NCBI GenBank assembly: GCA_030272155.1
Contig: CP126197.1
Location: 1,240,001-1,304,000 of the forward strand
Origin: Tetradesmus obliquus
Lineage: Eukaryota; Chlorophyta; Chlorophyceae; Sphaeropleales; Scenedesmaceae
DNA: 64,000 bases
Reading direction: 5' to 3'
Shown here: positions 10,828 to 60,843 of the stretch, one piece after another
How positions within the stretch are numbered: the first letter of the stretch is position 1
Layout of the letters: each line of letters opens with the position of its first letter
Notes under the pieces: generated by a model
What the model was told of the DNA's origin: nothing
The model's database searches: none
Seen by the model: only the letters and a program-made list of their open reading frames with translations
Program-made: the position numbers and the translations under genes

Positions 10828-11162
10828 GAATGGATGTTGGAACGTGTTAATGTGTTGATACTCCGTGGAATCAAGGAGCAATGGTAGAAGCCTCGTCGCA
10901 CCTCCTGAACTCCTTGGACTGAAGCTGCGGATGCGCAAGCACAGCACTGAGTGTCTCCCAATCACTTTTATACAAGAACTTCGCGGAGGCGTGAATACAT
11001 GCAATCTAATGATGGACTGCTGCTGTCGATATGTGCTAGCAACGAGGCAACGCTTGATGGATAGCTGCTGTCGATGTGCTAGCAACGAGGCGACGCTTAG
11101 CAGAGAGTGATTCAACCACGCAGTACACACCAGCTGCCAAGTCTGTTGTTCGGTGTCGTCAT

Positions 11163-16060: not shown

Positions 16061-16132
16061 CTGCAGGCAATGCAAAGGTGCAGGTGCCAGAAGAGGCATT
16101 ATTGATATCGGCTTCACACAACATACACACAC

Positions 16133-19156: not shown

Positions 19157-19518
19157 AAACTGGGTGCAGCAACCGTCTGGTCTGCTTTGAACTTTTGAAT
19201 ATTTGGGGCCAGAGGCAAAAATTCAAGGATTCGTGCGGATTGATTGGAAAGTGCTTTGCAATTTCATCTTGATTGTTTGAATTCTTGAATTTCCATATAT
19301 AAGGGTGTGTGGAGAGAGGCTGATTAAGAGTTGTGTCAGCACACCACTGATGTGGGTTTGGCAGGGGCTGAAAAGGCGGTTATTCAGAATTCAAAAATGC
19401 AAGGCGCGGCACAGCTACACAAGCTCTTGGCGTTGTTGTATGCAGTGAGTGGCTATTGTCATCGATAGTCATGTTCAAACTGCTACTTCAGGACTTGGCT
19501 TTTTCAGTGAACAGACGT

Positions 19519-21646: not shown

Positions 21647-22065
21647 TGGTGTGCTGCTACTGCTTGGTTTCTGCTGCTGCTGCTGCTGCTGCTGCTTGCT
21701 CCTTGTGGTTCCCTAGCTGCTGTCGGTTCATAACAGTCGTTGAACGTCCTTAGTTAGCATATTAAAGTGCTCCTCAAGCTGCATCGCTACTTTCACACGA
21801 CAACACCGGATGCGTCTGATGCCCCTCGTCGCAGTTCGGTCGCCTGAACAATATTTCTGAACCAACTGTAATGCCCTTTCACGTGTTCCGATGCAACAGG
21901 TAAGTCCAGACTGCACCACCACCTTAAGCCCTAGCAGTGGTAGGGGGACCCAGTAATGGTTAAGTCATGTACTACTCTCTCTCAAAATACTGTTTCAACA
22001 TATGACAATCACGTACACATGCGCCGAAATGATGCAGCCAGCGCAAAGAACAGGCGTGTCTGCCT

Positions 22066-22452
22066 CTACTGGTGCTGCCGCAACTGCTCCCTCATGCTCT
22101 CATCTAGCAAAGAAGCAAGGCACAGCTGCTGCTTCTCAACACTCAAGAGCTCAGCCTCTGTAAGCTGCACGCTCTCTGACATGGCATCTACACCTTCAAC
22201 ATGCAAGCCTACAATGTCCCCATCAGCTGTCAGCAATGGGCTGCCACCGTCACCCTTGTACGTTGTCGCGCTGTACAACAGCTTTTCTCCCTTGCCGCAT
22301 ATTTTGAATGGGTGAGCACGCATCAGGCCTAAGCATGTGTCAAATTCAGGCAAGCTTGGCTGCAGGGCAAGGTGGTATGTCGCTAGCCAGAGCGTGGTGC
22401 CCACAAGACCTTGTACATCTCCATCATAAATCGTAAACCAACCCCGAGGAGA

Positions 22453-22509
<57 letters not shown>

Positions 22510-25500
22510 TTGCTGCTCAATGTGGCAGACTGACAGAACAGCCAAGTCCTTTGTTGGGTAAGTATTCACCACAGTGAACCCCAGCTTGCTGCTTCCAGCG
22601 GCGGCACTGCGGGGTTGCACAAGCTGCCCTGTGTAGCCAACGGCACTGCCCAAGGGCAGGTTGTGCAATGCTGTCAGTGCAACACGGGGGCCCACAAGAG
22701 CCGCTACGCCTACAGAGGACTTGGCTGTGAGGCCATGGCTCCTGGAAGTTTGATCCAGGGATCCCCCATCACTGCCACTGCCGCCACCACTGTCAGTCTG
22801 ACTACCGCTAGCACCGCCCTGAGGCTGGGGATGCTGCTGATCCAGCTTCTGCTCAGCTTCTGGGTCGCCAAGGATCAGCCAGACCGCTGGCTCGGCAACT
22901 TTCAGAGGATTTGTGTGCCTCGGCCTTTTCGCTACATGCTCTGTGCAAGCAAGGGGGGGGGGGGGGGGGGTTGCAAAATATGAGGCAAGAAACTGGGTGA
23001 GCGACGTGGAAGCATGAACAAGTATAAAGTACAACATGTGAGCAGGAAGTCAGCAGTTCATGGGCGACCAACTGACACATGTTTCCAGTCGGCTGATATT
23101 GAAAGCAAGAGCAAGCTGCTACTGGATTAGGGGCCTGTAACAAGCATGGCCTGCAAACGTTCAATGTTGTGTTGTTGCACATAAACGCTTGCTCATACAA
23201 CTCACCAAACACGCAGCTTGGATGCCAGCTGGTCACTAAGCTGCATCCTGTCATGGGGCTGATCAGTCCCTGGCTCACCTGGTGGTTAACACACACGCAT
23301 ACAGGGTGATTTTTGTCGGAACATGCAAGGGCACGCAGGTTCCGTGTAGAAGCACAGCACACAGCAACAGCATGAGAGTGAATGCCTCAAGGCATTTTGA
23401 CTCCTAAGGCCACAGTCTGATGCACATCCATCATTGCCGCCACAAGGCAGGGTTTTTGTTATGTATGAACAACACGTGCTTGCCCTGCCGCACTGCCACC
23501 TAAGAACACTGCTGACCCAAAAGCAAATCAGTGCAAGCAAACTGTGCCACATGTGTAGGTCATGCATGCAACATCATTCTGCTGCCATCTCTACAATTCT
23601 CACTACCACCAGCCCCAGAAACTCCAGCAATGTGCTGCGAGCTTGCACCCACCTAGCTGTGTCTCCAAGGCAGTAACCCTGGCTTTCAGCTCCTCCACTT
23701 GGTCGCCTGAAAACGGACCCACCACAGCAAGCTTAACTGAAACAGGGAAGAATGTAGGGGGGAAAGGGCAGTTGAATAGACTTCGAGCAACGAGCAGCTG
23801 TGCTGCATGCTTGTGTTACTGCTGCAGATTTTACATTGCTGCAACAAAGCCGGCTGTTGCAAAGTCTTCACTTGGTTGTGCAAAGCCTTACATGCCTTGC
23901 TAATGCTGCTTGCTAGCAGACATACATAATACTGGCTGCCAACATTTGGTGCGCCTGAGAATCAGGACTGCAGTTGCATGGGGTTGCACGGCTGCTTCAC
24001 ACACAGTGGCAAGCAATGCTGGTTTGGCAGCCTTGCCACAAGCACCATCGCAAGCACATGCATGACTCACCTGCTGCTGCTGCTGCTGCAGGGACAAGAG
24101 GAGAAGCCAGATGGGAAGCCGTGAAGAGCACATGCAAGAAGGACACGCGGGCAGGGCCATGTTCAGCAAAAGGTCAAACAAAGAAGCTTGCAGCATGAAA
24201 GCCCAGTGGCATGCAGCACACAGGAGCATGCAGGATGGTGCTGCAGGGGCTGCCTGGTATTGTGGAAGTGTTCAAAGTATGCCCCATGACACTGCTCTGG
24301 CAGGTGGCTGCCAGCACGCCCTAGCAGAGCACTGCTTGGTGGGCATGCGCAGCATGTGATAACCCAGCTTGTGCAGTCAATAGATTCATAGACTTCTCCA
24401 TGCTGCTGTGACAGCTCAAGCTGCAAAAACCCTTTCCATGCGACCAGCATGTACTCGTGCAGAAGAGTTGGCAGCAACTGCTGGCATGCGCCACAGGCGG
24501 CCGCTGCATGCTGACATACCACCAATGCTCAACTCCAACGCTCACCTGGTGCTGTTGTGGTGAAGCAGGGCCGCCAAGGAATGGCAGTTGATGGCGCATG
24601 CACAGGAGCAAGGCAGGGCAGAGCAGGGCAGCACAGGTCAACATCAGTGGCGTATGCAATCAGCATTATGCATGCAGCATTCAGGAGTGCAGGATGGTAA
24701 TGTGGCACTCTTGTGTTGTCTTTTGACAGCGCAGAGTGCACACAAAGATTGACCTGTGCAGAGTGTGTGGCACTGGTGCATGCTATGATTGGGAGTGCAG
24801 AGTGTTGTGGTTTTATGTTGCTGCAACATAGCTGGCTGCAGCAAAAGCCTTCACATGGATCTGAAATGCAGTCGCCTCGCTGATTCTAATCGGTTACAGA
24901 TAGCATGAGGGTAGCTACCATGCGCCAGGTGGTGCTGCATGTAGTGCTCTTAATAAACAGGACTGCTGGGGCATGGGCTTTAGCAGCTGCTTTACAAGCA
25001 GCTGCTAGCAACGCTGGTTTGGCAGCCTTGCAAGTACATGCATGACTCACCTCCTCCTCCTCCTGCTGCTGCTGCTGCGGGACGAGAGAAAAAGCCAGGT
25101 GGCAGCCATGAACAGCACATGCAAGGACACGTGGGCAGGAGATCAGCAAATGGTCAAACAAAGAAGCTTGCAGCATGACAACACAGTGGCTAGCAGCGCA
25201 CAGGAGCATGCAGGAGGGTGTTGCAGAGGTGGACAACAACACAAGATGTGCAATGTCGGTCAAGAAAGGGTGGGGTGGGAAAGCAAAGCGTGGAGGGGGC
25301 ATACATTCCACACCGCAGCATGCATCATCAACATGGACACAAGCAGGCATCGTGTGCATTGAAGGGGTTGCATGCATGCAGCAAAGCACTTGCTACAGCA
25401 CCATAGGAAAAACATAGCAACACCGGGTTGTCCACCAGGGGCCATGCAGGGTGCTGCTGCACACCCTTGAGTGAGCACCAAAGTTGAGCAACCGTGGCTG

Positions 25501-26303
25501 GCATGTTGCATGTGGTGATGCATGCAGCACTTGTCATGGCTAAGACTGCTTCTGCTTGGTTTCACAGCTGCTTCAAATGCAGCAGCAATCCTCTTGCACT
25601 GGCAAGCATGCCTGTTGTGAGCAAGGTGTGAAACCCCAGGATTGCTTGCATCTCCAAGATCCAACCATCTGCTGAGCTGTTGCCAAATTCTATGGTTCTG
25701 GTGGCAAACAATAGACATTTCCACCCACGCTGCACGCAGCGCATAATGACAGCCTGATGGACACCCTGATCGAGTCAGCGCATCTGCAGCTAGTTTCAGT
25801 GGCGCCTTTGAAGGCTTGTCATTCTAATGCTACAGCTTCCCAGTCATCCGGCTGATTTTGAACAGTGGAAACGCCTTGTCGGTCAGTGTGCATTGGCTTC
25901 AAGAGCGCCCAGCATAATCAGCAAGGCTCCGTGTCACTGTGTACCGACATGCAGAGCTGCCAGCAACAACACTGCCTGCACCAACCAAACTGGGGTTCCT
26001 GCTGCTGTACAGAGGGTCTCCCTGAGATTCTCATGACTCACCAGACTGGCTGCTCAGCCTGTTCTCCTTGGCTTGCAACTCTCTGATGACCCCCAGCAAC
26101 TCGACATTCTCCTGCTGCAGCTGCTGCCACTCCTCACGGTTGTTGGACGCTTTCGCATCGTGAATGCCAGCTCTGACCTGCTCTAACCGAGCCTCATGGC
26201 GTTCCAGCTTAGCTTGAATGCTTTCCAGCTCCTGCTGCATGGCGGACACCCCTGCCAACTCGGCTCCTGCTGTATGGCCGAAGCACGGCGTTTCAACATC
26301 CAT
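22066..26303 (-). CDS. Coiled-coil plus trypsin-like protease, copy 2
   Basis: Exons 26303-26042, 23736-23653, 23247-23206 and 22940-22066. The His-Asp-Ser triad and poly-Gln insert are unchanged. The coiled coil differs from copy 1 in one tight block: copy 2 reads QQLQQENVELLG where copy 1 reads QQQQALELELLG. A Pro to Thr change lies near the start. The intron carries the same repeats and candidate micro-exons as copy 1. Confidence 0.78.
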
Positions 26304-26639
26304 GAATGGATGTTGGAACGTGTTAATGTGTTGACACTCCGTGGAATCAAGGAGCAATGGTAGAAGCCTCGTCGCACCTCCTGAACTCCTTGGACTGAAG
26401 CTGCGGATGCGCAAGCACAGCACTGAGTGTCTCCCAATCACTTTTTATACAAGAACTCCGCGGAGGCGTGAATACATGCAATCTAATGATGGACTGCTGC
26501 TGTCGATATGTGCTAGCAACGAGGCAACGCTTGATGGATAGCTGCTGTCGATGTGCTAGCAACGAGGCGACGCTTAGCAGAGAGCGATTCAACCACGCAG
26601 TACACACCAGCTGCCAAGTCTGTTGTTCGGTGTCGTCAT

Positions 26640-29503: not shown

Positions 29504-32288
29504 TCAAGAGTACATGCTGGCAGCAGCCACCTTGAACTCTGTCGTGCTGAACACTGGCAGCCTTGATACTTGCTGCAACAGTACACGGGCGTACACATCC
29601 TGCATCTCCTCTGCCGGCAGCATGTCAGCCAGGTCCAGCAGGTCAGGGTTCACAGCAGCCCCTGCAGCAGCTTGCACACTGCGGGCCAAGTCAGGCACCT
29701 TGCGGTCTGCCAGCTCAACAGGCAGTGCGAGCTGGGGGGCTAGTTGCTGCTGCACTGGCAGCTCTTTGCCGGCTGCCGCAGTCGCAGCTTGGTCCACACA
29801 ACCCTTAATGACCACCACTGCTGCAGCTCGGCTGGGACACCGCATGTGCTTCACAGTGGCACCATTCATCCAAAACAGCTGCCAATCCTCCATCAGGTCT
29901 GTGAGCACCACCACCGGCTTCCACTGCGTGCTCAGAATGCTCGCCACCACTAGCTCACATACTGCCTGGTACACTGAGGCCTCGTTCACCACCTTCTTAA
30001 ACTCAAACAGCACACAGAGCCCACCACGCACAATGTGTGTCAGGTAATTGACCCGGGTGATAATTGCTGCATCTGTGTTGCCAGTGATGTTGCTGTAGTA
30101 AAGGAGGTCCTCATAGCCTGCGAGATCCAACAGGTGCTTGTCTCTGTCACCCGCCTGGTGCCACAGCAGCGGGTAGTCCGTCCGGCCAGGCAGCCTGATG
30201 AGCTGTTGTAGGTACGGGATGTACCTGTGAAGCACACCAAAGCATATGGCAGCAACAGTGTGGCAGAACAACAATCCCACAATGCAACAACACTACTGCG
30301 GCTGTGCAATGATAACAAGAATACCATTCATGCCATAGCATTATTGCCATTGCGCTGTGTGTCGAGCAATGCACCTGTGCTTATCAACACCCCATCTTAT
30401 AGGTGTTGACCATACCTGTCGGCCTGGGCAGGCTCTTGTTGGTCTGGGTGCCAGTGGAAGCCGCCCAGCTTTGCTGCCGCTGTGTCATCCTCAACGTTCT
30501 CCAGCAGGCTGGGCAAGCACACCTCCATTTTCAGGCCAGATCGTGATGACATGTGGCCCCAAGCCCGTGCAGTAAAATTTGAGATTGACACCTTGTCACT
30601 CCTAGCCTTCTTCAATGCACGTAGCAGGGCTTCCTCCAGCCTGGCATCTGTCATCTCGACTGCCAGGTGTGCAACAGGAAAAGGAGGGCAGAGGCCCGCA
30701 TTAGGCATGGCAGAAAATCATCAGCAGGGTAGCAGTGAGGATCATAATGCACTTCAGATGGTGTGCTCAGATGGTGTGCTCAGACCAGGGTGAAGCTCTG
30801 CAGCTGCCTCCACCGCAAAGCAGTGCCACCGCTTCCTATGCCATGCGCTACAGCAGCTCTGGGCCAACCGCCTGGCTTCTGGAAACCGATGCATTGGGCG
30901 GACTCCTTTGCTGATGCTGATCATTAGCATACATGATACTGGTAGCTAGCATGCTGCAGATGGGGGTGCAGGCGGTGCTGGTGACAATCAGGCATGCTAC
31001 TGCGTGAGGTTTCACGGCTGCCTTACACGCCATATGACACTGCTCAAAAAGCATGCTGTAACTAACCCCTAGCAAAGGGCTGCTTGGTGGCCACGCGCAG
31101 CATGTAATCACCCAGCTTGCATAATCAATGTGTTCCTAGACTACTTCGTGTGTGTTGCTGTGGCATTTCATACTACAGCAACCCTTCCCATGGGACCAGC
31201 ACATAGTCTTGCAGAAGAGTTGGCAGCAACTGCTGGCATGCGCCACAGGCGGCCGCTGCATGCTGACATACCACCAATGCTCAACTCCAACGCTCACCTG
31301 GTGCTGTTGTGGTGAAGCAGGGCCGCCAAGGAATGGCAGTTGATGGCGCATGCACAGGAGCAAGGCAGGCCAGAGCAGGGCAGCACAGGTCAACATCAGT
31401 GTTGCATGCAATGAGCATTATTGTATGCACACAAAAATCAGGAGGAGCAGGATGGTAATGTGGCACTCTTGTGTTGTCTTTTGGCAGCGCAGAGTGCACA
31501 CACATATCAGCATGTGTGCTGTGTGTGTGGCACTCTTGCATGCAACAAGTGGAGTGCAGAGTGTTGCAGCAACTTGCTGCAACAAAGCTGGCTGCAGCAA
31601 AATCCTTCACATGGATCTGAACCTCAGATGCCTCGCTGATTCTAATCAGTTGCAAACAAGCATGATGGTGGCTACCATGCGCCAGGTGGTGCTGCATGCG
31701 GGACCCTTGATAAGCAGGACTGCTGGGGCATGGGCTTTAGCGGCTGCTCCACACACAGTGGCAGGCCATGCATGTATGGCCGCCCTGCAAGCACACGCAT
31801 GACTAACCTGCTGCTGTTGTGGGGACGAGAGAAGAAGGAGGGTGGGAGCCATGGAGAGTACATGCAAGAAGGACACACGGGCAAGGCACTCAGCAAAAGG
31901 TCAAACAAAGAAGCTTGCAACATGAAAGCACAGTGGCATGTTGTGGGTGCATGCAGTAGCACTGCTGGTAGCTGGGAAATGCTGCTCTCCATGGTTGCTG
32001 CAAGCTTGCTTGAATAGCAGCTGATGTGGGTTACCAGGAATGTTGCGACCCAGCCGCACCTGCCTGCTGCTGCTGCTGCTGCTGCATGAGCAGCACCTTC
32101 TCCTGCCGCAGCGATGCCATCTCCTGCCGCAGCGATGCCAGCTCCTGCCGCAGTGCTGTCAGCTGCTGCTGCAGCAGCAGCAGCAACACCCGGTCTCCAG
32201 AAGCAGCCTGCAGCTGCTGCTTCACAAGCTCGACCTCGGTCTCCTTGGCGACAATCTTCAGCTCTACTGTCTCTGGTGTTGTAGACAT
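29504..32288 (-). CDS. Coiled-coil plus PD-(D/E)XK-like nuclease, Crinkler-type
   Basis: Three exons join in frame: 32288-32060, 30659-30416 and 30224-29504 (phases 1 and 2), giving 397 residues. Residues about 5-75 are a coiled coil with repeated LRQELASLRQEMASLRQE, ending in poly-Gln. The C-terminal domain has Asp in ITGNTDAAIITR, then LCVLFEFKK (the E-x-K of a PD-(D/E)XK fold), YQAVCELVVASIL and KPVVVLTDLMEDWQLFWM. This order resembles the restriction-endonuclease-like domain of Crinkler-type effectors in fungi, oomycetes and algae. It probably cuts nucleic acid if active. The first intron is related to intron 1 of the protease gene. A likely TGTAA signal lies about 135 nt past the stop. 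Family assignment is by memory of motifs and needs a profile search. Confidence 0.68.
30880..31960 (+). repeat. Intron repeat shared with the protease gene
   Basis: Inside intron 1 of the nuclease gene. About 31205-31375 is nearly identical to 8990-9150, and 31440-31930 resembles 9220-9720, in the same orientation relative to the host gene. Candidate micro-exons lie at 31298-31303 (CACCAG) and 31808-31813 (CAGCAG, donor GTTAGT). Confidence 0.8.
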
Positions 32289-36900: not shown

Positions 36901-39529
36901 GACGTTGGGGACGCAGCAGGTGGCAAGCAGGGCAGCAGCAGCACTGCCAAAGCACTGGAGGACTGCACACCACAGCAGGTGGGTGGCAGCAGCAAGGGAG
37001 GGGGAAGGGTATGGCTGTCACATGATGGCCCCAAACTGGTCCGGGCCGGTACAGTTTCTGCCCTGGGCTTTGTGTCAGCAGTGCAGCCCAAGCAATGCAT
37101 CTGCCCCATGTATCTTGCTGACTGATCATATGCATGCTGCCAAGGAGTTCAACCTGGGTGGAGTACAAGGGACGAGTACTGTCCCTGTCCCTTGTCCCCA
37201 GGCACCGCCAGGGGCTGGTTGTATGTCAGTGACATAGTGCTTAACCCACATCATCTGCCGTTACATGTCATATGTCACGTGTGCTTGTGATGTTCATGCA
37301 GGCTTCTGGGGATGCAGCAGGAGGCGAGCAGGGCAGCAGCAGCACTGCCAAGGCACTGGAGGACAGCACACCACAGCAGGTGGGTGGCAGCAGCAAGGGA
37401 GGGGGAAGGGTATGGCTGTCACATGATGGCCCCAAACTGGTCCGGGCCGGTACAGTTTTTGCCCTGGGCTTTGTGTCAGCAGTGCAGCCCAAGCAATGCA
37501 TCTGCCCCATGTATCTTGATGAGTGATCATATGCATGCTGCCAAGGAGTTCAACCTGGGTGGAGTACAAGGGACGAGTACTGTCCATGTCCCTTGTCCCC
37601 AGGCACCGCCAGGGGCTGGTTGTATGTCAGTGACATAGTGCTTTACCCACAGCATCTGCCGTTACATGTCATATGTCACGTGTGCTTGTGATGTTCATGC
37701 AGGCTTCTGGGGATGCAGCAGGAGGCGAGCAGGGCAGCAGCAGCACTGCCAAGGCACTGGAGGACTGCACACCTCAGCAGGTGGGTGGCGCAGCAAGGGG
37801 TATGGCTGTCACATGATGGCCCAAAACTGGTCCGGGCCGGTACAGTTTTTGCCCTGGGCTTTGTGTCAGCAGTGCCACCCAGGCAATGCATTTGCCCAAT
37901 GTCAAGTTGTATCATGTGAAGTAGTCACATGCATGCTGGCCTACGACCCACAGCACGTGCCCTTACTTGTGTGTGTCTGTGTTTGTCATGCAGGCTTCTG
38001 GGGACGCAGCAGGTGACGAGCAGGGCAGCAGCAGCACTGCCAAAGCACTGGAGGACTGCACACCACAGCAGGTGGGTGGTGGCGGCAGCAAGGGGCATGA
38101 CTGTCACTTGATGGCCCAAACCTGTTCCGGGCCGGTACAGTTTTTGCCCTGGGCTTTGTGTTAGCAGTGCAGCCCAAGCAATGCATCTGCCCCCATGTTT
38201 CTTGCTGAGTGATCATATGCATGCTGCCAAGGAGTTCAACCTGGGTGGAGTACAAGGGACAGGTACTGTCCCTGTCCCTTGTCCCCAGGCACCGTCATGT
38301 CAATGTTCAACCCACAGCATCTGCCCTTACATGTTACATTTCACATGTCACGTGTGCTTGTGATGTTCATGCAGGCTTCTGGGGATGCAGCAGGAGGCGA
38401 GCAGGGCAGCAGCAGCACTGCCAAAGCACTGGAGGACTGCACACCACAGCAGGTGGGTGGCAGCAGCAAGGGAGGGGGAAGGGTATGGCTGTCACATGAT
38501 GGCCCCAAACTGGTCCGGGCCGGTACAGTTTTTGCCCTGGGCTTTGTGTCAGCAGTGCAGCCCAAGCAATGCATCTGCCCCATGTATCTTGCTGACTGAT
38601 CATATGCATGCTGCCAAGGAGTTCAACCTGGGTGGAGTACAAGGGACGAGTACTGTCCCTGTCCCTTGTCCCCAGGCACCGCCAGGGGCTGGTTGTATGT
38701 CAGTGACATAGTGCTTAACCCACAGCATCTGCCGTTACATGTCATATGTCACGTGTGCTTGTGATGTTCACCGTCATGTCAATGTTCAACCCACAGCATC
38801 TGCCCTTACATGTTACAATTCACATGTTATGTGTGCTTGTGGTGTTCATGCAGGCTTTGGGGGATGCGGCAGGTGGCAAACAGGCCAGCAGCAGCACTGC
38901 CAAGGCACTGGAGGACAGCACACCACAGCAGGTGGGTGGCAGCAGCAAGGGAGGGGAAGGGCATGGTTGTCACATGATGGCCCAAACTGGTCCGGGCCGG
39001 TACAGTTTTTGGCCTGGGCTTTGTCAGCAGTGCAGCCCAAGAATGCATCTGCCCAATGTCAAGTTGTGTCATGTTGAGCAGTTACATGCATGCTGCCCCA
39101 TACAACCCACAGCATATGCCGTTACATGTTATGTGGTATGTGTGCTTGTGGTGTTCATGCAGGCTTCGGGGGACGCAGCAGGCGGCAAACAGGGCAGCAG
39201 CATTACCAATGCAGTGAAGGACTGCACACCACAGCAGGTGGGTGGCAGCAGCAAGGGGTATGGCTGTCACAGGATGGCTCAAACTGGTCCGGGCCGGTAC
39301 AGTTTTTGCCCTGGGCTTTGTGTCAGCAGTGCCACCCAAACAATGTATCTGCCCAATGTCAAGTTGTATCATGTTGAGCAGTCACATGCATGCTGCCCCA
39401 TACAACCCACAGCATGTGCCCTTACATGTCGTATGTCACGTGTGCTTGCAGGCTTCTGGGGACGCAGCAGGTGGCGAGCAGGGCAACAGCAGCACTGCCA
39501 AGGCACTGGAGGACTGCACACCTCAGCAG
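36901..39529 (+). CDS. Tandem array of eight near-identical short exons
   Basis: Exon copies lie at 36901-36978 (5' end altered), 37302-37379, 37703-37780, 37994-38071, 38375-38452, 38854-38931, 39163-39237 (75 bp) and 39452-39529. Each typical copy is 78 bp, 26 residues, bounded by CAG and GTGGGT and in phase 0 on both sides, so any number can be included or skipped without changing frame. The peptide starts ASGDAAGG and ends ALEDCTPQQ, with a GSSSTAK centre. Most differences between copies are at third codon positions in this frame (TCT/TCG, GAT/GAC, GGA/GGT/GGC, AAG/AAA, CCA/CCT), which supports it as coding. Introns of 210-400 bp are repeated as well. The peptide is not a domain I recognise; it may be a flexible spacer before the coiled coil at 39762. 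Confidence 0.65.
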
Positions 39530-39761
39530 GTGGGTGGCAGCAGCATGAGCGAGCATGGCTGTCACAGCTGAACCCTGTTTTTTCGCTGTTTGCTACGCGC
39601 AGCAGGCATGTAGTGCAGATGCTGCTCAGGTCACGTAATAGGTTATATCGGCAGTTATGCGCGCAACCTACTGCAATGAAACCCCGCTGCATGACATGTA
39701 GTGCTGAGCTTGTGTCTCATGTGTCTCATGTGTGTTCATAACTGCCTGTCTTTGCATGCAG

Positions 39762-43710: not shown

Positions 43711-46700
43711 ACGAACACGGCTGCGATTGTTACCACATCTGCCGTCAGGCGCACTGGCCATGATCTCCTTCTACGCGGCCATCTTGATGCTGCCGCTGGC
43801 CGACGCCATGACGCTCTTCTTCCTCAACCCATGCATGACCGCATTGGCTGCCTGGGCCATCAGGTGCGGGCAGTGCATGCATGGCAGTTCCTCCTCAACC
43901 CCTGCATGGCTGCGGGGGCTGCCTTGGCCATCAGGTGGGGTCAGCGTGGATGTGTAACTATGAATCGTGTCTGCAGCTAGGCCAGTTGGTATTGACCAGC
44001 ATCCTGGGGCTGTTGCTGATCACGCACCTGCCTATGCTGGCTGCTCTACCAGCAGTAGTGTTGCAGCGCGGATCAATTTACACTAGTAGGACGGTGGCCA
44101 TGGCGTATCCAGCAGGATGCTCGCTCACTCCTCTTGCTCATGTTCTATACTGTGCTGCTGTGCTGCGCAGGGGTGAGCCCTTAGGCTTGCTGGGTGTTGC
44201 CGGCTGTGCCTGGAGCATCTTGGGGCTGGTGCTGATCGTCCCTCATTTCCGTGTGCTGCTGTATTTTGTGCTGTTGTACTGCACAGAGGGGAGCCCCTGG
44301 GCCTGTTGGGTGTTGCCGGCTGTGCCTGGAGCATCCTAGGGCTGGTGCTGATCGTCCCTCATTTCCGTGTGCTGCTGTATTTTGTGCTGTTGTACTGCAC
44401 AGAGGGGAGCCCCTGGGCCTGTTGGGTGTTGCCGGCTGTGCCTGGAGCATCCTAGGGCTGGTGCTGATCGTCCCTCATTTCCGTGTGCTGCTGTATTTTG
44501 TGCTGTTGTACTGCACAGAGGGGAGCCCCTGGGCCTGTTGGGTGTTGCCGGCTGTGCCTGGAGCATCTTGGGGCTGGTGCTGATCGTCCCTCATTTCCGT
44601 GTGCTGCTGTATTTTGTGCTGTTGTACTGCACAGAGGGGAGCCCCTGGGCCTGTTGGGTGTTGCCGGCTGTGCCTGGAGCATCCTAGGGCTGGTGCTCAT
44701 CACACACCCGCCCATGCTATTCGGGGGCCATGCTGACTGGGGCCCCAAGAGGGTGATGGGCACATTGCTGGGCGTCACCTCTGCTGTCTTTGCAACTGGC
44801 GCATTCATCTGCATCAGGTGGGTGGCGGGGATAGTTGACTGGACAGCAGCAGGCATCTGCTACGCTGACTGGGGCCCCAAGAGGGTGCTTGGCACACTGC
44901 TGGGCGTCACGTCTGCTGTCTTCGCAACCGGCGCATTCATCTGCATTAGGTGGGTAGTGGGGATAGTCGACTGGACAGCAGCAGGCATCTGCTACGCTGA
45001 CTGGGGCCCCAAGAGGGTGCTGGGAACAGTGCTGGGCGTCACGTCTGCTGTGTTTGCAACCGGCGCATTCATCTGCATCGTGGGGTTGGGATAGGCGGCT
45101 TCACAGAGATAGCAGCAGGTGGCTGCCTGTGGGTCCTGATCATTTGCAGCACTGGCGCAATGCACGTTTCAGTTAATCTTGCGGCAAACACTGCCATGCA
45201 ACGCTGCCAGTGCTCTCACAGTCAGCAGCGCTTGCGGCAAGGTGTGCAGTTCTGCAGTACTAGTACTAGCGGGAGTTTCAGCAGCGTACAGGCCACAGGC
45301 AGCACCTGCCTCTTTCTCTACACTGCTCCCACACTACCCCCACACCGCCCTACCCATTTCCCTGCCTCACCACTGCGCAGGTTTGTTGGCAAGGCAGAGC
45401 CGGCCATCGTTGTGGCACTGTACTTCCACACCAGCACGATGACAAATCTGCACACCAACGCTAACAGCGCCTGTATGCCTGCCTTTACCCTGCCATCACA
45501 CTTTGCCCACACCGCTGTTCACTGCCTTTGCACTGCTTTTTTGCCTCACCACTTCTGCACAGGTTTGTCGGCAAGGCAGAGCCAGCCATCGTGGTAGCTC
45601 TCTACTTCCACACCAGCACAATGCTGCTCTCAGCTGTCCCACTGCTGCTGCGCTGGCCCAGTCCTGCTGCCTGGCTGTCCTGGCTTGATGGTCTGCTGCT
45701 TGTGGGCGTGGCCGCTACCTCATTTGCTGGGCAGCTGTTTTTGACTCGGGGCTTTCAGCTGCTGCCAGCTGGCAAGGCGGCAGGCTTCAATTTTTCACAG
45801 GTGCGAGCCTGCTCTGCAGGTGCCCTGCATGGTAGTGTATGCGGCAGACGGTGTGGTAGTGTTAGTGCGGTTGCTGGGCAGCTGTTTTTGACTCGGGGCT
45901 CCCAGCTGCTGCCAGCTGGCAAGGCGGCCGGCTTCAACTTCTCACAGGTGCGGATGGATGCTGAAGCAAAGTGCAATGCATCTGTATAAAGCATGTGGAG
46001 CTTGTACAGCTTTGTTGCGTGATGGCAGCTGCTGCGCAGTGCGCCAACTGAGGTGGACTTTGCAGCCTGATGCACTGTTATCAGAATGCTGTCAGTGATC
46101 AGGGGCAAGACATTTTGGAGTAAAACTGGGAGGCGCTCACTCATGCAACTTGCGTTTGCATGCTGCATGTTTGCCTGTGCTGCTGCAGGTGGTGTACTCG
46201 TACGCCTTTGGCATCTTCTTCTTCCACGAGCACCTGTCGCTGTTTGGGGTGGCAGGCACAGCGCTTATTGCGCTGGGCATGGCCTGCGTGACAGCACGCA
46301 CAGCACCCCAGCAGCAGCAGCAGCAGCAGCGGCAGGGTGATCAGATTAAGCTGTCAGATGAGGCTCGTGATGCAGCTGGGGCAGGGCTGGGCTCCCGCAT
46401 GTTCAGCAGGATCCTGCAGCTGGACTCGCTGCAGCAGCAGCAGCAGGATGGCAGCCTCCGCAGCAGCAGCAGCAGCAGCTTCCTGACACGCATGCAGAGC
46501 TTCCAGAGGCTGCTAGCAGACCGCAGGAGAGGCGAGGGGTCGGCAGATTCAGGCGGCTATCAGTACCATGCTGCTGGCAGCAGTGAGGCAGAAGGAGTAG
46601 GGCTACTGCCGCAGGTGCAGGAGCGGAGCTCCGAGCATGCGAGTGGGCTGGCAGGGGCAGCGGCTGGGCATGCAGCAGCAGCAGCAGCAGCAGCAGGGTC

Positions 46701-53326: not shown

Positions 53327-56300
53327 ATGGAGCTTCATATCGACTACAATGGTGTCTATGGATTGATGGGCGGTGCTGAGAAGGAGCGATGTAGCACCAA
53401 CTCCTTGACTGTACTGGACAGCAGGACTGGGGCAGAGTACACCGTGAGTTCCAGGTGCAAGCAGCAGCAGCGGCCGCAGCCCTACGAACCAGCGCATTGC
53501 CGCGTTTGTATTGTGTAGCTTGCTGCGAGTGACAGCCTGCTGTCACCAACACGTGCTGCGGAAGCGGTGCTATCATAGCACTGCTATGGCAGCAGTGCCA
53601 CTGGCAGACAGGTTTGGTTCTGACATTGTATCGTGACTTACTGCTCAAAACTGATGTCGGGTTTGGTTCTGACGGTGCACTCACAAAAGCAACATACCGC
53701 GCAATGCTCTGCCATGCCACCTGCTGCAGCTGGGCATCTCAGGCAGCGGCAGGTTTGGTCCTGACAGCGTACCAAACATATAACGCAGTGCATTTGCCAT
53801 GGCACCTGCCGCAGCTGGCGTCACCAAAGCGTCCACCAGCATCAAAGCAATGCACAGAGCAGTTCTCGCAATCACTGCCGCACACCAAATGCAAAGTATG
53901 GGATCAGATTTCTGTCCTGACAGTGATGCAATGTGCTGCAACGCGCCGCATTTATCATGCCACCTGCTGCAGCTGGGCATCTCAGGCAGCGGCATACTCA
54001 GCGCGCAGGCCCTGAAGCAGATCAAGGCTGGGGGAGACGGAGCGGGGCTGCGCGTGTATGACCCCGGGTGCGTGCCAGCTACATGTTTTTCTTTAAGTAA
54101 CATTCCGTAAGCGCCTGAGCTGCAGTTGGTGCACCTCAGTTCAGTGTAGCAGGGCGGCTGCGCGTGTACAACCCCGGGTGCGTGCCAGCCGACTCTGCTT
54201 TATTGTTTTTGCACAGCTCTTGGTGCGGTTTGGTACTCAAGAAAACAGCATGGTGGCGATAAAGCTGAGCGGCACGTACACCACCCCCGATGCGAGGCAG
54301 CAACACATGCTGTAACAAATGCCGTAGATTTGTCTTCAACATAACTTCAACTGATGTGAGCAGCAGTGCTGCACTATGTAGTACGTGTCCTGATCAAGTT
54401 CACTCTCCAAGTCACCAGTTGTGGTGTACTACACCTGAACCCTGATGCCAGCCTTGTGCTCTTCCACCTCATTCAAGGCTCCGAATCGAACTCTACCACC
54501 CGCCGCCATCTGCACCTGCTGCTGCAGCTACACCTGCACTGCTGCTGCTGCCAGCAGTATTAGTAATCTTGATGCTACCCAGGGGCTGCTCACCTACAGG
54601 GGCATCCCCATTCAAGAGCTGGTGGGGCAGTGCAGCTACCATGAGGCTGCCTACCTGCTCATATATGGAGACCTGCCAGACAGGTGCGCCTGTGAAACTG
54701 GTGTTGGTGCTTCAGGCGGTCTTTTGTCGCCGCTGGCTGTTAGGTGCAGTTACCTTGAGGCGGCCTACCCGCTCGTCTGTGAAACCTCCCGGACCAGTGC
54801 GGCTGTCATCTCGTGGTCGCCTAGTGTTGTAGGCTGGCTGCTACATGGCTGCTCACCTACAGGGGCACCCCCATTCAATAGCTGGTGGGGCAGTGCAGCT
54901 ACCATGAGGCGGCCTACCTGCTGATTTATGGAGACCTGCCGGACAGGTGCGGAGTTATATGGTGTCGTAGGTGCTGCAGGGAGCTGGCTGGGGGGTGCAG
55001 CTACCATGAGGCTGCTTACCTGCTTATCTATGGTGACCTGCCAGACAGGTGTGCCTTCTTGGCGCTTATGTGGTTGCCTGGTGTGCTAGGGTCTCTGCGA
55101 CCGAACTTCTGGGGCAGTGCAGCTACCATGAGGCCGCTTACCTGCTGGTTTATGGAGACCTGCCGGACACGTGTGCCTGTGAAGTACTTTCAGGCTGTCT
55201 GTTGTCGCTGCTGGCTGGTTAGTAGAGCTGCCAAGAGGTAGATCACCTGCTCTTTTATGAAGACCTGTCGGACAGGTGCGGCTCTGAGGGACTTGAATGC
55301 TTGGCATGTACGGCTCTGAGGGACTTGAATGCTTGGCATGTACGGCTCTGAGGGACTTGAATGCTTGGCATGTACGGCTTGCAGACGCAGCTATCAGCAG
55401 GACAGCGCAGCAACCATCAGGTGGCATGCTTGCTTACGTTGCCTGCCAGTTGGGGGGCACAGTCCTGCCATACTTTGCTGCTTTGGTTGCCAGGTTGTGG
55501 GTACTGGCTGGAAATACTGCGAGGCTATCTTTGTTCAGAAGGTCAAAGCATGCTGCTGCTGCTGCCGCCCCTGTTGCTGCTGTTCCTCTCACGGCGCCCA
55601 GCTGGCTACTTTTGAGGAGTCCCTCTCCCGCCACGCCTGTGTGCCCAGCACAGTTCAACCCACCACCTTACTGCTGGCGCTGCTGCTGCTCACACAGGGC
55701 CCAGCTAGCTGCTTATGCGGAGTCCCTCTCCCGCCACGCCTTTGTGCCCAGCATAGCGACGGCTGTCAATACCACTGCTGCCGCCGCTGCTGCTGCCATT
55801 GCTGTTGCTGCTGCTGCTCTCACAGCGCCCAGCTGGCCGCCGTCGCGGAGTCCCTCTCCCGCCACGCCTTTGTGCCCAGCACAGTGGCGGCTGTCGTTGC
55901 TGCCATGCCAGCTGGCAGTCACCCCATGGCCTGCATGATGGCTGGCTTGACAGCTCTGGGGGCATGCTACCCCAGCCAGAACCCCGCGGTTGCAGGTGCG
56001 CTTGGAAGCCAGCTGCTGTGTATGTATGTGTCCAGCAGGGCAGTCACTTGAGGTCTTTGTTTCACCTGTGTGCTTGGAAGATCGGCAACTGCAGCTCACA
56101 TGTGTGATTCGTATGCACAGCGTAGCTTGCCTGCTAGCACATCCCAACTTGTAGCAGTATGCGTACTAAGCATGAAGTTGTTGCCTACGTGTCTGCAGGC
56201 ATGTCTGTGTACGGCAGCCCGGAGGTGCAGGACCACCAGATTGCTCGCATACTCGGCAAGGTGGGTGCTGCTGTTGTGCCGGATTGACAATCGTGTGGTG

Positions 56301-59300
56301 TCTCTAGGCTGTGCACCAGCAGCCGCAACCAGCAGAGCTTGCAGGCCAAACTGAACATAACCGGATTTGAAGACACCCCATTTTAATGATGCCAGGCAGA
56401 CTCAGCGGCTCAGCTGTGCTTGCATGCACTGCTGCGCAAAACATGTACGCAAATGCGGATGGGCCTTGGTTCAGTCCCACTGTGGCCTCGTACCTCTGCG
56501 GCACAACATCGTGTTGCCAATGCTGCCTGTGCTCTGTGATCACAACACAGATGCCCACGCTGGCCGCGCTTACATTTCACAAGCTCTGCGGCAGCTTGCC
56601 TACGCTGCCCCACGCAGCCATGGGCTATGCAGAAAACTTTGTGTACATGCTGCAAGCCCAGGGCGATAGCTCCTACAGGCCAGCTCCGCGGATGGTTTCC
56701 GCGCTGGAGGCGCTCCTGCTGCTGCATGCGGAGCACGGCATGAGCTGCTGCAGTGCTGCACTGCGCCACCTGGCGTCCAGGTGAGGCCTGTGGTTGGCTG
56801 GTTGGGGTGAGGGTGTCTGAGATTCAAAACAGGGGTTGAAGGTGTTGCGCAAAGCATGAGTTGCGTGTCAGCCCTGCGGCGCCTGGCATAGGATGCCCGC
56901 TTGTTTTGCCGTGGCAGCAGCCTATGCCAACTGTGTGGCATGCTGCGTGCAGACTTGCTGCCCCGCAAACCCCTCTGCATTGCTGTCATAACAAACTGTG
57001 GCGTGCGACTTCCGTTGTGTGCAGCGGTGTGGGTGTGTACACAGCCACGGCAGCAGGCGTGGGGGCACTGCACGCCCACTGCATGTCGCTTGCACATAGT
57101 TGATAGCGTGTGTGTCATGCACTGCGGGACCTGGCTTAGGACGCCTTCTCTGGCACCGTGGCAGCAGCCGCCTAGCTATGCGGCATGCTGCGTGCATACA
57201 TGCTGCGTTGATGAGCTGCTCCATAATGCTGTCACAACACACTGCATTGTATCATGTGCAGCGGCGTGGATGTGTACACGGCCATGGCAGCAGGCGTGGG
57301 GGCACTGCATGGCCCACTGCATGGAGGGGGGGGTGAGGCTGTGCTGGACATGCTGCAGGCGATCGGCAGCACTGACAACGTGCCAGGGTTTCTGCAGCAG
57401 GTGTGTTTGATGAGGAAGTTTGAAACAGCTGCGCGCGTGCACGTGTTGCAGCAATGCACTGCGCGCCATGGCCTGCATGCACGACACAGCATGAACCAGC
57501 AATGCATTAGGTCAAGTCAGTAGTGATTCAGGCCCTGCGGCAGCCTCGATACTGGCTGACAGCACACACACACTCCTCATAACCCGCCTTATCTTACGGA
57601 TCATGATGGCTACTTGTCGCGTTTTGCCATTGCTGAAGGCCACATTGTATGCTGGAGCTGCAGGTGAAGGAGCGCCAGGTGAAGCTGGCAGGCTTTGGCA
57701 TCACACCTAATCTTCAGTAGTCTTGATAGCAAACATGTGTCAATGTTACTGAAGGCCAGGCTGTGTGTGGCGCTGCAGGTGAAGGCGTGCCACACAGAGC
57801 TGGCCGGCTTTGGCGCTACAGCCGACCCGCGCTGCATCATCATGCCCAAGGTGGGGCGCTGCACGATATGTTACAATTGTAACATGCCTTGCAAGGCATG
57901 CAGCTAGGCCTCAAGGCTGAGTAAGCAACACCAGGCTACTAAGATATGAAGCCACATGTTTGCTGCATACATACCCAGCATGACCGGGTGTTGATGCCTT
58001 GAGCATGCTGCCAGCCCTGCTGGGCTCGGGTTTGCGTTGACTATCAAGCGAGGTGCTGCGTGGTCACACTGCTGCTGCTTGTCAGCTCTGCTGCTGCGGG
58101 TATCATTGTGCTCAGCACAAGTTGCTGCAGCTTACCCGTGGCTGGTGTAGCTGCCTGAGCATGATGTGGCGGTAGCACCTCTCCCTGGCACTTCTTTGTC
58201 GCACTCCCACATCACTGCTGCTGCTGCTGCTGCTGCGCACCTGCTGTGTCTGTACGTGTTGTGGCTGCTGCAGCTGTCTGAGGACGTGGCTGCTGCTGCT
58301 GCTGGCAGCGACCCACTGGTCCAGGTGGCGCTGGCGCTGCAGGTGGGCAGGGTTTGCAGGGGTGCTGTTTTAATTACATTACATTACATTACATTACATT
58401 ACATTACATTACATTACATTACATGCTCCACTCAACGAGGAGTGGGAACCCCAGTCAGGAGCCAATGGGAGGCTCATAGGGGAGGTGTTCATTACCTGTG
58501 CAGGGTTTGCAGGGGTGCCATTTCGAGGTGTTTAAAACCTGAAGTTCCGCCCTAGGGCCACAGGCACGTGTCAGCAGCACTGCGTCGTGCGTTTACAAAA
58601 AAAAATCGGATCACATACAGCTGCATCCGCCACAGCTTGTGCAGGCTGCTTCGACATCGGATGGGGATTGTCACTGCTCTGACTTGCTATGCTGCTTGGT
58701 GCAGGACGCTGTGCTGCATGATGAGTACTTTGTGTCACAGAAGCTGCACCCCACCGTGGACTACTACAGGTGAGCAAGACAGGAGGACTGCCAGCAAGGC
58801 AGCAGTGCCCTCATAAGCATTTCTGCCGCAGGCAACAACAGCACAATGCTGGATCTATCTGCTTTTGTGCAGGCTGCGCTGCTGGCCAGCAGCGCATGTG
58901 CTATCTATGCAGCAAGCCTCCTGCAATTCTGCATCATGCCGTTGCACACCAGTGTGTAAGGGTCGTGAACTGCTACTGCTGGTGGGCTGTCAATGCGGCA
59001 GCTTCAATAGCATGTTTAATCCATCACATTTGTCCATGTTGCTGTGCAGCGCCCTGGTGTGCATGGCATTGGGCTTTCCCTCGGAGTTCAACACAGTGCT
59101 GCTTGCTGTGGCTCGGTGAGTGATCAATTTTACCCACCTGCTTAGTGCGCCAGATGTCACTTTTAGACAAAGTGACCAGCTAATGGAATAGGACTGCGCA
59201 TTGCAAGGTTGTCAAGGCCTTTTGTGGCTGAAGCAGCTTGCAAGGTCTCCATACTTTGTCGCAGATGCAACGCTGGCAGTGTCACTCTGCTATGCTTGGA

Positions 59301-60599
59301 TGCTGGGCAGTGGAACTGGCTAGGTTCTTTGCATGCAGGCACCAGGCTTTGCAGTTTATCTTGCAGCATGTGTTTCTCATGTGAACGTCTCTGCTGCGCT
59401 GTGCTGCGCTGTGTATGCTATATTGTGCAGTGTGGCCGGCTGGTGTGCTCACTGGAAGGAGAGCCTGGCTGACCCAGACACCAAAATTGCACGCCCACAG
59501 CAGGACTACAGGTGAGTGGCAATGATGCAGTGCCGACCTTTGTAATGTATTGATTTGAAATTGCTGCTGCACTTGTGTGACCGTAGCAATGTACAGCAGG
59601 ACTACAGGTGAGCACAAACTGCCAATGTGGAGCAGCATAGTGGTGCCATGTTGTTAGACACCAAGATTGCACGCCCACAGCAGGACTACAGGTGCGCTGG
59701 GCCTGCCAGTGTACACTGATGCAGTGCCGACCTTTGTGATGTATTAGAAGTTATTATTGCTGCTGCACTTGTTTGCACCGTAGCAATGTGCAGCAGGACT
59801 ACAGGTGCGCTGCGCCTGCCAATGTAATCTGTACCGGCAGTACTACCTATGGTGTTTGATGTACCACTGTGGTACTACCACAACTGCGGTTACGTTTGCC
59901 TTAATTGTACAGATGAACACAACTTGATCCACTGCTGCTTGCTCAAATGTGGCAACCTGCAAGGATCCTGGCTGCCTCACTCCAGGGCCGTGGCCACCAT
60001 GTGCTGTCTGCCACCATGCTACAGCTGCACATGGCTGTGTTACTGCTGGTGTTACTGCAGGGGACCTTGGCTGCGCCACCACCAGCTCATGACGACCATG
60101 TACTGCCTGGCACCATCGAATGACTGCCAGGACCCACATGTTATTCCTGTATTTCTGTGTGGCTGCTCTGCTGCCCGTGGCCCTTGGCTGCGCCACTACC
60201 AGCCCATGACCACCATGGACTGTGTCCCACCACCATCATCAAACAGATGTCTGCCACCCTCTTACAGCTGCACATGGCTGGATCTCTGCGCCGGTGTTGC
60301 TGCAGGGGCCCTTGGCTGCGCCACTATAAGCCCATGACCACACGGCATCGCCTGGCATCGTCATACACTTGCCAGGACCCACATGTATTTAACATGTACC
60401 TCTGTAATGCTGAATTTTTCTGCTTGTGGCACTGCAGGGGCCCCTGGCTGCGCCACTACCAGCCCATGACCACGCGGCAGCTGCAGCAGCAGCGGCAGCA
60501 GTCCTGGTGTGTGGCAGCATCACCAGCCAGCAGTTTCTATGCTGCTGCCTCTAGCGGTGCCTCAGCTGCTGCTGCAGCGCAGCGCGTGGCGCGGAGCAG

Positions 60600-60634
<35 letters not shown>

Positions 60635-60843
60635 GTGGTGGTGGTGGTGGTGGTGGTGCTGGCGGTTGCACGGCAGAGCAGCTTGAGAAGTGGGCGGGAG
60701 GTTCAACAGCGGCTGCAGTTGCCGAAGGGCTTGCCCTTGGTGGTGCTGGTGAGGAGTGCAACACAGAGCTGTCGGAGGGGCCTGTGATTGTGGAGAAGAG
60801 CAATGCATACAAGCGCCGCATTGCTGGAGAGAAATGGCTGTGA
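53327..60843 (+). CDS. Citrate synthase, 13 exons
   Basis: Exons: 53327-53443, 53973-54067, 54528-54683, 55826-55995, 56199-56260, 56551-56780, 57262-57400, 57779-57850, 58274-58342, 58705-58769, 59050-59115, 59431-59511 and 60438-60843. All phases agree, giving 575 residues. It condenses oxaloacetate and acetyl-CoA to citrate. Family landmarks in order: [89 protein letters not shown] (first catalytic His), [28 protein letters not shown] (catalytic Asp) and [12 protein letters not shown]. It resembles the hexameric/peroxisomal type more than the mitochondrial one, but no clear targeting signal is seen. The GFGH.V segment with the second His is absent: exon 8 reads [12 protein letters not shown]. 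The C-terminus has an Ala/Gly-rich extension. TGTAA lies about 55 nt past the stop. Confidence 0.94.
53730..54186 (+). repeat. Edge copies around citrate synthase exon 2
   Basis: CTGCAG then CTGGGCATCTCAGGCAGCGG occurs at 53730 and at the true exon start 53973, with a weaker copy at 53815. The exon 2 end with its donor (GGCTGCGCGTGTA..CCCCGGGTGCGTGCC) is copied at about 54151-54186. Confidence 0.85.
54627..55282 (+). repeat. Tandem copies of citrate synthase exon 3 end with donor
   Basis: The exon end (GTGCAGCTACCATGAGGC, then TACCTGCT..TATGGAGACCTGCC and GACAGGTG) is present at 54627-54690 (true), about 54886-54953, 54991-55055, 55107-55172 and 55235-55282, with a poorer copy near 54745-54800. 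Most keep a usable donor; the one ending near 55172 has CGTG instead. None of the decoys has an acceptor giving a full exon. Confidence 0.9.
55283..55378 (+). repeat. 32-bp tandem repeat, 3 copies
   Basis: GCTCTGAGGGACTTGAATGC and the next 12 bases repeat at 55283, 55315 and 55347, nearly identical, in intron 3 of citrate synthase. Confidence 0.92.
55586..55890 (+). repeat. Three copies of citrate synthase exon 4 start
   Basis: CTCACxGCGCCCAGCTGGC followed by GAGTCCCTCTCCCGCCACGC appears at about 55586, 55690 and 55821. Only the third has CACAG as acceptor and reads through; the first two have CACGG or CACACAGG. Confidence 0.88.
57017..57778 (+). repeat. Edge copies before citrate synthase exons 7 and 8
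   Basis: The start of exon 7 (GTGCAGCGG(T/C)GTGG then TGTGTACAC) is copied at 57018 before the true copy at 57262. The start of exon 8 (GCTGCAGGTGAAGG) is copied at about 57655 before 57779; the copy reads [12 protein letters not shown] then stops. Confidence 0.82.
58373..58424 (+). repeat. (ATTAC)n microsatellite
   Basis: About ten ATTAC pentamers in intron 9 of citrate synthase. The only AT-rich simple repeat of its kind in the window. Confidence 0.95.
59490..59810 (+). repeat. Copies of citrate synthase exon 12 end with donor
   Basis: CAGCAGGACTACAGGTG(A/C)G occurs at about 59497 (true), 59594, 59675 and 59793. The 59675 copy also keeps the preceding ACCAAGATTGCACGCCCACA. Intron sequence between (GCAGTGCCGACCTTTGT) is repeated too. 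Confidence 0.9.
60052..60470 (+). repeat. Four copies of citrate synthase exon 13 start
   Basis: TGCAGGGGxCC(T/C)TGGCTGCGCC followed by CCCATGACCAC occurs at about 60056, 60170 (acceptor lost), 60299 and 60432. Spacing is about 120-130 bp. The last continues into the terminal exon. Confidence 0.9.

Follow-up and report, generated by a model that had tools for sequence, protein, structure and literature searches.

Introns in several genes of the green alga Tetradesmus obliquus are partly or largely made up of tandem copies of the neighbouring exon ends, splice site included, and it is well supported that protein-changing differences are rarer in these spare ends than would be expected of inert debris. 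The pattern is described here from a citrate synthase-like gene at 53327-60843 (plus strand) of a 64,000-nucleotide stretch of contig CP126197.1 (assembly GCA_030272155.1, positions 1,240,001 to 1,304,000), referred to below as the window, and from two further genes of the same genome (104.7 Mb, 17 contigs), i.e., CCT1 (locus L035) and part of an aldehyde dehydrogenase gene (ALDH, locus L036). The latter two were chosen for repeated segments in their profile matches and the citrate synthase gene was given for its copies, so the three are no random sample. We regard the anatomy of the copies and their presence in several genes as almost certain, and the constraint acting on them as very probably a real signal.

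Rebuilt exon by exon, the citrate synthase gene has 13 exons and 12 GT-AG introns and encodes 575 amino acids with 0 internal stops. The predicted product is citrate synthase-like, matching the Pfam citrate synthase profile at residues 72-437 (E = 4.7e-96), and its closest public protein belongs to the same species (identity of 95% by BLAST and of 98% in the multiple alignment). The exons of this gene model are as follows.

53327..53443, plus strand, citrate synthase exon 1
53973..54067, plus strand, exon 2
54528..54683, plus strand, exon 3
55826..55995, plus strand, exon 4
56199..56260, plus strand, exon 5; edge search found no copy
56551..56780, plus strand, exon 6; edge search found no copy
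57262..57400, plus strand, exon 7
57779..57850, plus strand, exon 8; without the GFGHR segment of relatives
58274..58342, plus strand, exon 9; edge search found no junction copy
58705..58769, plus strand, exon 10; edge search found no copy
59050..59115, plus strand, exon 11; edge search found no copy
59431..59511, plus strand, exon 12
60438..60843, plus strand, exon 13 with stop

For the edge search, each exon edge was compared with its own intron side only, and a match was accepted when its score exceeded the best of 60 block-shuffled controls and was at least 44. This gave 17 rows, one of which, an ATTAC microsatellite in intron 9 (10.4 perfect copies at 58373-58424), was dropped. The remaining 16 copies comprise two at the 5' edge of exon 2 and one at its 3' edge, five at the 3' edge of exon 3, two at the 5' edge of exon 4, one each at the 5' edges of exons 7 and 8, one at the 3' edge of exon 12 and three at the 5' edge of exon 13. 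Together with two extra exon 12 3'-edge copies from a separate comparison, 18 copies, one to five each, lie in the adjacent intron at 8 of the 24 citrate synthase edges, in agreement with the first-pass annotation, which had reported one to five tandem copies at at least seven edges. Three of the 18 hold little exon (4 bp in the second exon 2 copy and ~15 bp in each of the two extra exon 12 copies). A stricter, exon-only search retained 13 copies at six edges with 22-100 bp of exon each, and the splice dinucleotide is kept in 11 of these 13. The copies are listed below.

53713..53751, plus strand, exon 2 5'-edge copy; acceptor before 53730, 39 bp identical
53758..53818, plus strand, second, weak copy of the exon 2 acceptor region; 4 bp of exon only
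54151..54189, plus strand, exon 2 3'-edge copy; donor after 54177
54744..54815, plus strand, exon 3 3'-edge copy 1; decayed
54847..54980, plus strand, exon 3 3'-edge copy 2; 4 synonymous and 2 nonsynonymous differences (one a stop), both nonsynonymous ones distal by inspection
54981..55056, plus strand, exon 3 3'-edge copy 3; sequence match
55103..55222, plus strand, exon 3 3'-edge copy 4; sequence match
55226..55287, plus strand, exon 3 3'-edge copy 5; decayed
55552..55654, plus strand, exon 4 5'-edge copy, outer; AG lost, Phe (as in 11/11 relatives) where the true exon has Val
55672..55765, plus strand, exon 4 5'-edge copy, inner; sequence match
56862..57085, plus strand, exon 7 5'-edge copy; acceptor before 57025, ~160 bp of upstream intron included
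57630..57699, plus strand, exon 8 5'-edge copy; acceptor before 57664
59580..59628, plus strand, exon 12 3'-edge copy 1; ~15 bp of exon
59656..59767, plus strand, exon 12 3'-edge copy 2; 36 bp of exon
59777..59825, plus strand, exon 12 3'-edge copy 3; ~15 bp of exon
60015..60096, plus strand, exon 13 5'-edge copy 3, outermost; sequence match
60136..60213, plus strand, exon 13 5'-edge copy 2; AG lost
60263..60363, plus strand, exon 13 5'-edge copy 1, nearest; sequence match

Copies of 5' edges lie upstream of the true edge and copies of 3' edges downstream, and in the rebuilt 13-exon model only the copy contiguous with the exon body is used, both as first proposed. Being confined to the intron side, the edge search had no power to test orientation, and this was tested separately on the three genes: a copy was present in the adjacent, expected intron at 23 of 48 edges (31,018 bp searched, edge by edge), against a single match in all non-adjacent introns of the same genes (272,334 bp), with inverted matches numbering 1 and 0. 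This orientation is in itself no special evidence, as any viable junction-spanning duplication must show it. By gene, CCT1 has 34 copies at 15 of its 20 edges and ALDH 12 copies at 4 of the 5 edges examined. Intron DNA lying between an edge and its farthest recognisable copy amounts to 32% in citrate synthase, 63% in CCT1 and 76% in ALDH (two introns).

Beyond these three genes, five Pfam families were searched across the genome (with a cutoff of E 0.001 for two of them and E 1 for the other three, keeping clusters with at least three matches), and a repeated profile segment was found in 11 of 31 gene clusters, or 8 of 28 without the three curated genes. Among pairs sharing one edge only, 14 of 15 had the predicted orientation. 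In two of the 11 repeat-showing clusters (CCT genes on C4 and C15) the pair was internal and not at an edge, and in one (PF00133 on C15) the orientation was contrary. Several long genes, e.g., HSP70 on C3, C7 and C10, gave no repeated segment in this test of low sensitivity; within that sensitivity, the phenomenon is uneven across genes. Additionally, a 324-kb sample (four contigs including the window, with 440 edges, 24 from citrate synthase and the rest predicted ab initio) had junction-crossing copies at 67 of 440 edges. Of the 13 citrate synthase exons, only 5 are retained with confidence in the ab initio exon set, and results drawn from it are secondary. On contig C16, the annotated protein OEZ86_010546 agrees with the exon model of its locus over the 10 kb read.

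The spacing of the copies is constrained from below. Steps between successive junctions range from 94 to 449 bp with a median of 139 (59 strict steps, three genes), and two 83-bp steps occur among the loosely found citrate synthase copies. Among the 67 edges with junction-crossing copies the nearest copy stands at 96-144 bp in 40 and never closer than 80 bp, and of 101 local repeat loci (BLAST and TRF counts) the smallest offset is 100-120 bp in 36 and below 80 bp in 7. This scarcity of steps below 90 bp speaks against replication slippage as the whole story. Protein repeats were considered as a cause of the spacing and rejected: only 23 of 54 copy distances are divisible by three, and at the remaining distances a coding repeat would be out of frame.

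Misassembly often originates in tandem repeats, and the first-pass annotation had allowed that the copies might be artefacts. Yet the exon parts of the copies diverge on average by 10-12% from the true edge (three genes), which shows that a single sequence has not simply been read several times. Furthermore, the 13 residues translated from 53730-53768, within the exon 2 copy, recur as an exact insertion in P0001, an annotated protein of another T. obliquus assembly (OEZ85). An origin in the assembly or concatenation of this genome is hardly credible.

Whether junctions themselves attract duplication is less clear-cut. Of the 31 local repeat families in the curated genes, 25 span a junction, where 7.5 are expected if units of the same size are placed uniformly and viably (P = 3e-11). 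Allowing for slower decay of the exon half raises the null crossing probability to 0.41 or 0.56, the latter corresponding by our arithmetic to a fourfold faster loss of intron-only repeats, and gives P = 8e-6 or 0.004; all of these P values are too small, since all three genes had drawn attention by their edge copies. In the 324-kb sample, 100-bp queries searched over 1.2 kb of the intron side picked up a copy at 91 of 440 edges, compared with 38/440 and 61/440 for intron-shifted controls, 23/254 for exon interiors and 7/440 for mismatched pairs. With 50-bp windows, a copy within 1 kb was found for 19.2% of the last 50 bp of exons (n = 422) and 19.9% of windows straddling the junction (n = 422), and for 8.4% of the first 50 bp of introns (n = 417), 8.3-15.6% of intron interiors, 12.0-15.0% of exon interiors and 0.8% of random pairs (n = 1045). 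A repeated-exon array at 36.5-39.8 kb of the window is included in the 100-bp count and excluded from the 50-bp-window, 67/440-edge and ab initio dN/dS counts. Donor motifs are in excess in repeat units (20 of 86, against 5.3% of control windows, at a score of at least 7); acceptor motifs showed no such excess. Thus, exon-end copies are common, and the intron side beside the junction is no hot spot.

These numbers bear on a simpler account, in which local tandem duplication is uniform, exon-internal duplications are removed and exon ends come to notice merely through the slower decay of the exon half. It draws on the absence of any excess in intron beside junctions, on an edge excess of only 1.5-2.4 fold with 100-bp queries, on the existence of purely intronic repeats (e.g., two in CCT1 intron 2) and on the citrate synthase gene, which taken alone is compatible with it; the curated genes behind the 25/31 count were, moreover, picked. 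It is nevertheless improbable, because the excess of junction-crossing families persists (P = 0.004) even at a null of 0.56 and because neutral copies would yield neither of the two substitution ratios given below (0.20 and 0.26). The overlap with junctions that the first-pass annotation had asked for is therefore present in the picked genes and mixed in the wider sample, where duplication is raised in the last 50 bp of exon but not in the first 50 bp of intron relative to intron interior, and junction targeting of the duplication step is not established. Duplication may be aimed at junctions, or junction-spanning duplications may merely last longer.

The constraint on the copies is seen in their coding parts. 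Compared with the true edge, the 59 copies of the three genes show 267 synonymous and 123 nonsynonymous differences, where neutrality on the same codons predicts 2.36 nonsynonymous changes per synonymous one, i.e., a ratio of ratios (dN/dS-like) of 0.20 (citrate synthase 0.38, CCT1 0.18, ALDH 0.12). It is 0.21 once six copies are dropped, namely those at the two edges through whose profile matches CCT1 and ALDH were picked. If the true edge is constrained and the copy free, a ratio of about one half is expected; simulated unconstrained copies gave 0.55 ± 0.04 (range 0.48-0.63, 20 runs), and simulation at omega 0.3 gave 0.20. Ab initio edges, unselected for copies, yielded 0.26 (62 copies; another count gave 0.255 in 63 copies, 9 of them from citrate synthase). 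In CCT1, 166 of 224 copy differences fall at third codon positions, and mutation-spectrum bias was rejected as the source of the synonymous excess, the spectrum being broad (modelled by transition weight alone). Of the 59 copies, 54 have an intact splice dinucleotide (P = 0.003 for an assumed retention of 0.77, derived from the synonymous rate). The synonymous distance between copies and true edge is 0.24 per site. The ratio is ~0.19 within 60 bp of the junction and 0.43 farther out, with a Fisher P of 0.012 when the two sets are combined (0.012 for the curated and 0.32 for the ab initio copies taken separately). Judged by relatives, the amino-acid difference lies in the copy and not in the true exon in 60 of 62 cases in CCT1 and in 12 of 20 in citrate synthase, where the copy keeps the relatives' residue in 3. 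It is thus shown statistically that codons and splice sites are better preserved in spare edges than in unconstrained sequence, as though purifying selection acted on them at an omega of ~0.3, for the three curated genes together and for the ab initio set; this is not evident in citrate synthase alone. Such coding and splice-site constraint is not what inert debris should show, and replication slippage tolerated by the genome, the first explanation put forward, is not supported as the whole story, all the more as steps are rarely short.

We consider that the most likely reason for this constraint is recombination between spare and true edge, although the evidence leaves the proposal tentative, with chances somewhat below even, both for the scheme as a whole and for recruitment of spares as the cause of copy constraint. 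Short tandem duplications across exon-intron junctions, mostly ~90-250 bp per unit, would arise again and again, most likely by break repair with fill-in or by template switching, a known source of small tandem duplications. A duplication would survive where the exon-joined copy keeps the gene intact and the spare falls inside the intron, and serial rounds, which we infer to have taken place on one chromosome, would build arrays that lengthen introns from both ends. The arrays, their locality, orientation and spacing, and their presence in several genes are directly visible, and the repeated duplication of short junction-crossing segments on the intron side, as first suggested, is supported. 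Spare and true edge would then form direct repeats ~100-200 bp apart, between which deletion or gene conversion could make the spare the working edge; in a large population, damaged spares would be purged upon recruitment. This would explain the protected codons and splice sites, the less protected intron between them and the weaker protection far from the junction.

Several observations weigh against recruitment and the selective reading of the copies. If recruitment were at work, constraint should also fall off as copies lie farther from the true edge, and after trimming no such trend by copy rank exists (0.19, 0.23, 0.18, 0.18); a rank trend seen before trimming (Fisher P = 0.08) was gone afterwards. 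The citrate synthase gene alone gives 0.38 with strict copies, and all 16 loose copies together (47 synonymous, 53 nonsynonymous differences) give ~0.48, which is compatible with no constraint. The ab initio set may hold wrong frames, which would raise the ratio, and unrecognised real exons, which would lower it. Frameshifting indels occur in 11 of 59 copies, and these frameshifted copies are equally biased towards synonymous differences (52 versus 28), so part of the bias may predate copy status. Finally, recruitment was read from the sequence pattern and no recombination event was observed directly.

A competing account is an allelic origin, in which spares derive from diverged haplotypes through unequal exchange between homologues, accumulated their synonymous differences as working edges and have been neutral since. 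Unequal exchange between homologous chromosomes is part of minisatellite turnover, and if copies arose on a single chromosome, at most one of the two compared lineages would have been working, so that a ratio below 0.5 would be unexpected, as against the 0.20 seen. In the multi-copy arrays of citrate synthase and CCT1, differences that are shared or multi-state are 46 synonymous and 8 nonsynonymous, compared with 45 and 52 for single-copy differences, as if a constrained history had been followed by an unconstrained life as copies, and the bias of the frameshifted copies points the same way. In keeping with diverged haplotypes, the two T. obliquus citrate synthase proteins differ at ~2% of residues besides the 13-residue insertion. 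An allelic origin explains the synonymous bias as well as recruitment does and fits the frameshifted copies and shared differences better. On the other hand, it does not predict the weaker constraint far from the junction, and the C1 array at 66424 is near-identical (exon 0.99, intron 0.98 over 200 bp), which means that same-chromosome duplication occurs. On balance we hold it to be rather unlikely, if a serious competitor.

Selection might also act on the copies as protein, if spares were spliced into alternative mRNAs as in-frame cassettes. Annotated proteins lend this some colour: besides the exon 2 copy held as 13 residues by P0001, a second protein under the CCT1 locus name (P0121) repeats the nine residues VLESGSVVP, and a cryptic AG at L035:9289, inside the third exon 10 copy, would yield this repeat exactly. 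However, the citrate synthase and CCT1 copies have a single recognised splice site each and no more than 100 bp of exon, short of a complete exon, 11 of the 59 copies carry frameshifting indels, and repeats inserted in the core of a chaperonin or of citrate synthase are expected to be harmful; selection as translated cassettes is quite improbable. The suggestion in the first-pass annotation that copies are a source of alternative splice sites is to this extent in line with the annotated in-frame insertions in both proteins, and as a role it may hold.

Returning to recombination between spare and true edge, it is a more speculative step, and one we think unlikely though worth stating, to view exon ends as small populations in which a working edge and its intronic spares exchange sequence, introns serving as reservoirs for exon-end replacement. 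If true, noncoding intron DNA would be exposed to selection for the coding sequence that it later becomes, and genes and introns would evolve, through such exchanging populations, in a way for which the open-access literature searched has no named precedent. Whatever keeps them, exon-edge arrays are a concrete source of intron growth, and they may offer a natural example of spare sequence that stays under purifying selection while apparently unused. Introns of T. obliquus average 462 bp, against 230-302 bp in four other green algae, according to a table in PMC5966456, and the arrays could explain this length. They also matter for annotation, given that gene models of T. obliquus, and perhaps of its relatives, take up spare edges as exons: the ab initio gene finder did so, and annotated P0001 and P0121 hold copy-derived insertions.

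A few further features of these loci deserve mention. At 57664 of the window and at ~5594 of L035 a copy's acceptor is followed at once by GTG, creating CAG/GTG sites that resemble recursive splice points and that a spliced aligner took as zero-length exons. P0126, the CCT1 protein of Scenedesmus sp. NREL 46B-D3, departs from its relatives from the 3' end of exon 4 up to the exon 5 junction, the site of seven spare edges (three of exon 4, four of exon 5) in T. obliquus, and the same arrays may confuse annotation in that species. In citrate synthase, exon 8 (57779-57850) encodes GFGAT..ADPR where relatives have GFGHR....DPR, and the conserved histidine segment, also missing from the other T. 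obliquus protein, is kept in the relative P0002 (74% in the alignment). We take the histidine of this segment to be catalytic, and the gene, judged by its predicted product, may encode an inactive enzyme. Neither of the two citrate synthase paralogues on C2 showed a repeated segment in the Pfam profile search, and an attempt to model one of them on an algal protein gave 2 stops and no sound gene model.

Elsewhere in the window, young high-identity arrays with uncertain gene models lie at 36906-39567 and 44151-45119 (units of 401 bp x 2.5, 300 bp x 2.5, 116 bp x 4.8 and 132 bp x 2.6). Several of their units show splice-like motifs by eye, and no confident edge falls within the 44151-45119 array. 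The window also holds an 11-kb tandem segmental duplication (1-11162 and 15464-26639, 99.58% identical, with 25 mismatches and 5 gap openings) and a further diverged piece of it of 0.9 kb (8843-9714 versus 31067-31937, 82.8%).

We found no description of such exon-edge arrays in the open-access literature, most subscription papers being outside its coverage, and the passages on introns, tandem repeats and splicing in the portions available of PMC7590803, PMC5966456 and PMC7955037 mention nothing of the kind. Several known systems are nonetheless comparable. Mutually exclusive tandem exons likewise place similar coding copies side by side in an intron; these, however, are whole exons with two splice sites, whereas a copy in citrate synthase or CCT1 combines a single splice site with no more than 100 bp of exon. 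Minisatellites resemble the arrays in tandem organisation, in unit size and in possible turnover by exchange, inter-allelic conversion being known among them, and the T. obliquus copies are indeed head-to-tail direct repeats (59 strict steps of 94-449 bp, hardly any inverted match). Unlike in minisatellites, the array ends in a unit that works as an exon end, while codons and splice site are retained in the rest. Introners, which are transposon-derived introns (PMC9860276), also shape the intron content of many genes, but they form dispersed families, while the T. obliquus copies adjoin their source edge in the genes examined, with 1 match in 272 kb of non-adjacent introns and 7 of 440 edges matching unrelated loci.

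Parallels also exist for the duplication step. Small tandem duplications arising from break repair with fill-in synthesis by CST-Pol alpha-primase, as described in PMC8355091, are direct, local, adjacent and short, and the T. obliquus copies are likewise adjacent direct duplications of local sequence, most of them too diverged for breakpoints to be placed. The introduction of that paper, however, refers to insertions shorter than 100 bp, and the T. obliquus steps are mostly longer than 90 bp; the copies, in addition, span junctions, recur several times per edge and look constrained. For pairs of near introns in Drosophila, PMC2891723 describes how introns are gained when coding sequence that carries a proto-splice site is tandemly duplicated, and there too a local tandem duplication is absorbed because the extra copy is spliced out. 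That process takes a purely exonic unit and makes a new intron position from an exon segment. The T. obliquus copies, by contrast, include the splice site and adjoining intron, 40 bp of which beyond the splice site still match between copies (0.55 versus a null of 0.34, 90 pairs), so that an existing junction is duplicated with its intron and the intron grows. The creation of introns by tandem duplication is therefore already known from that source, and what sets T. obliquus apart is that the duplicated segment contains an existing junction.

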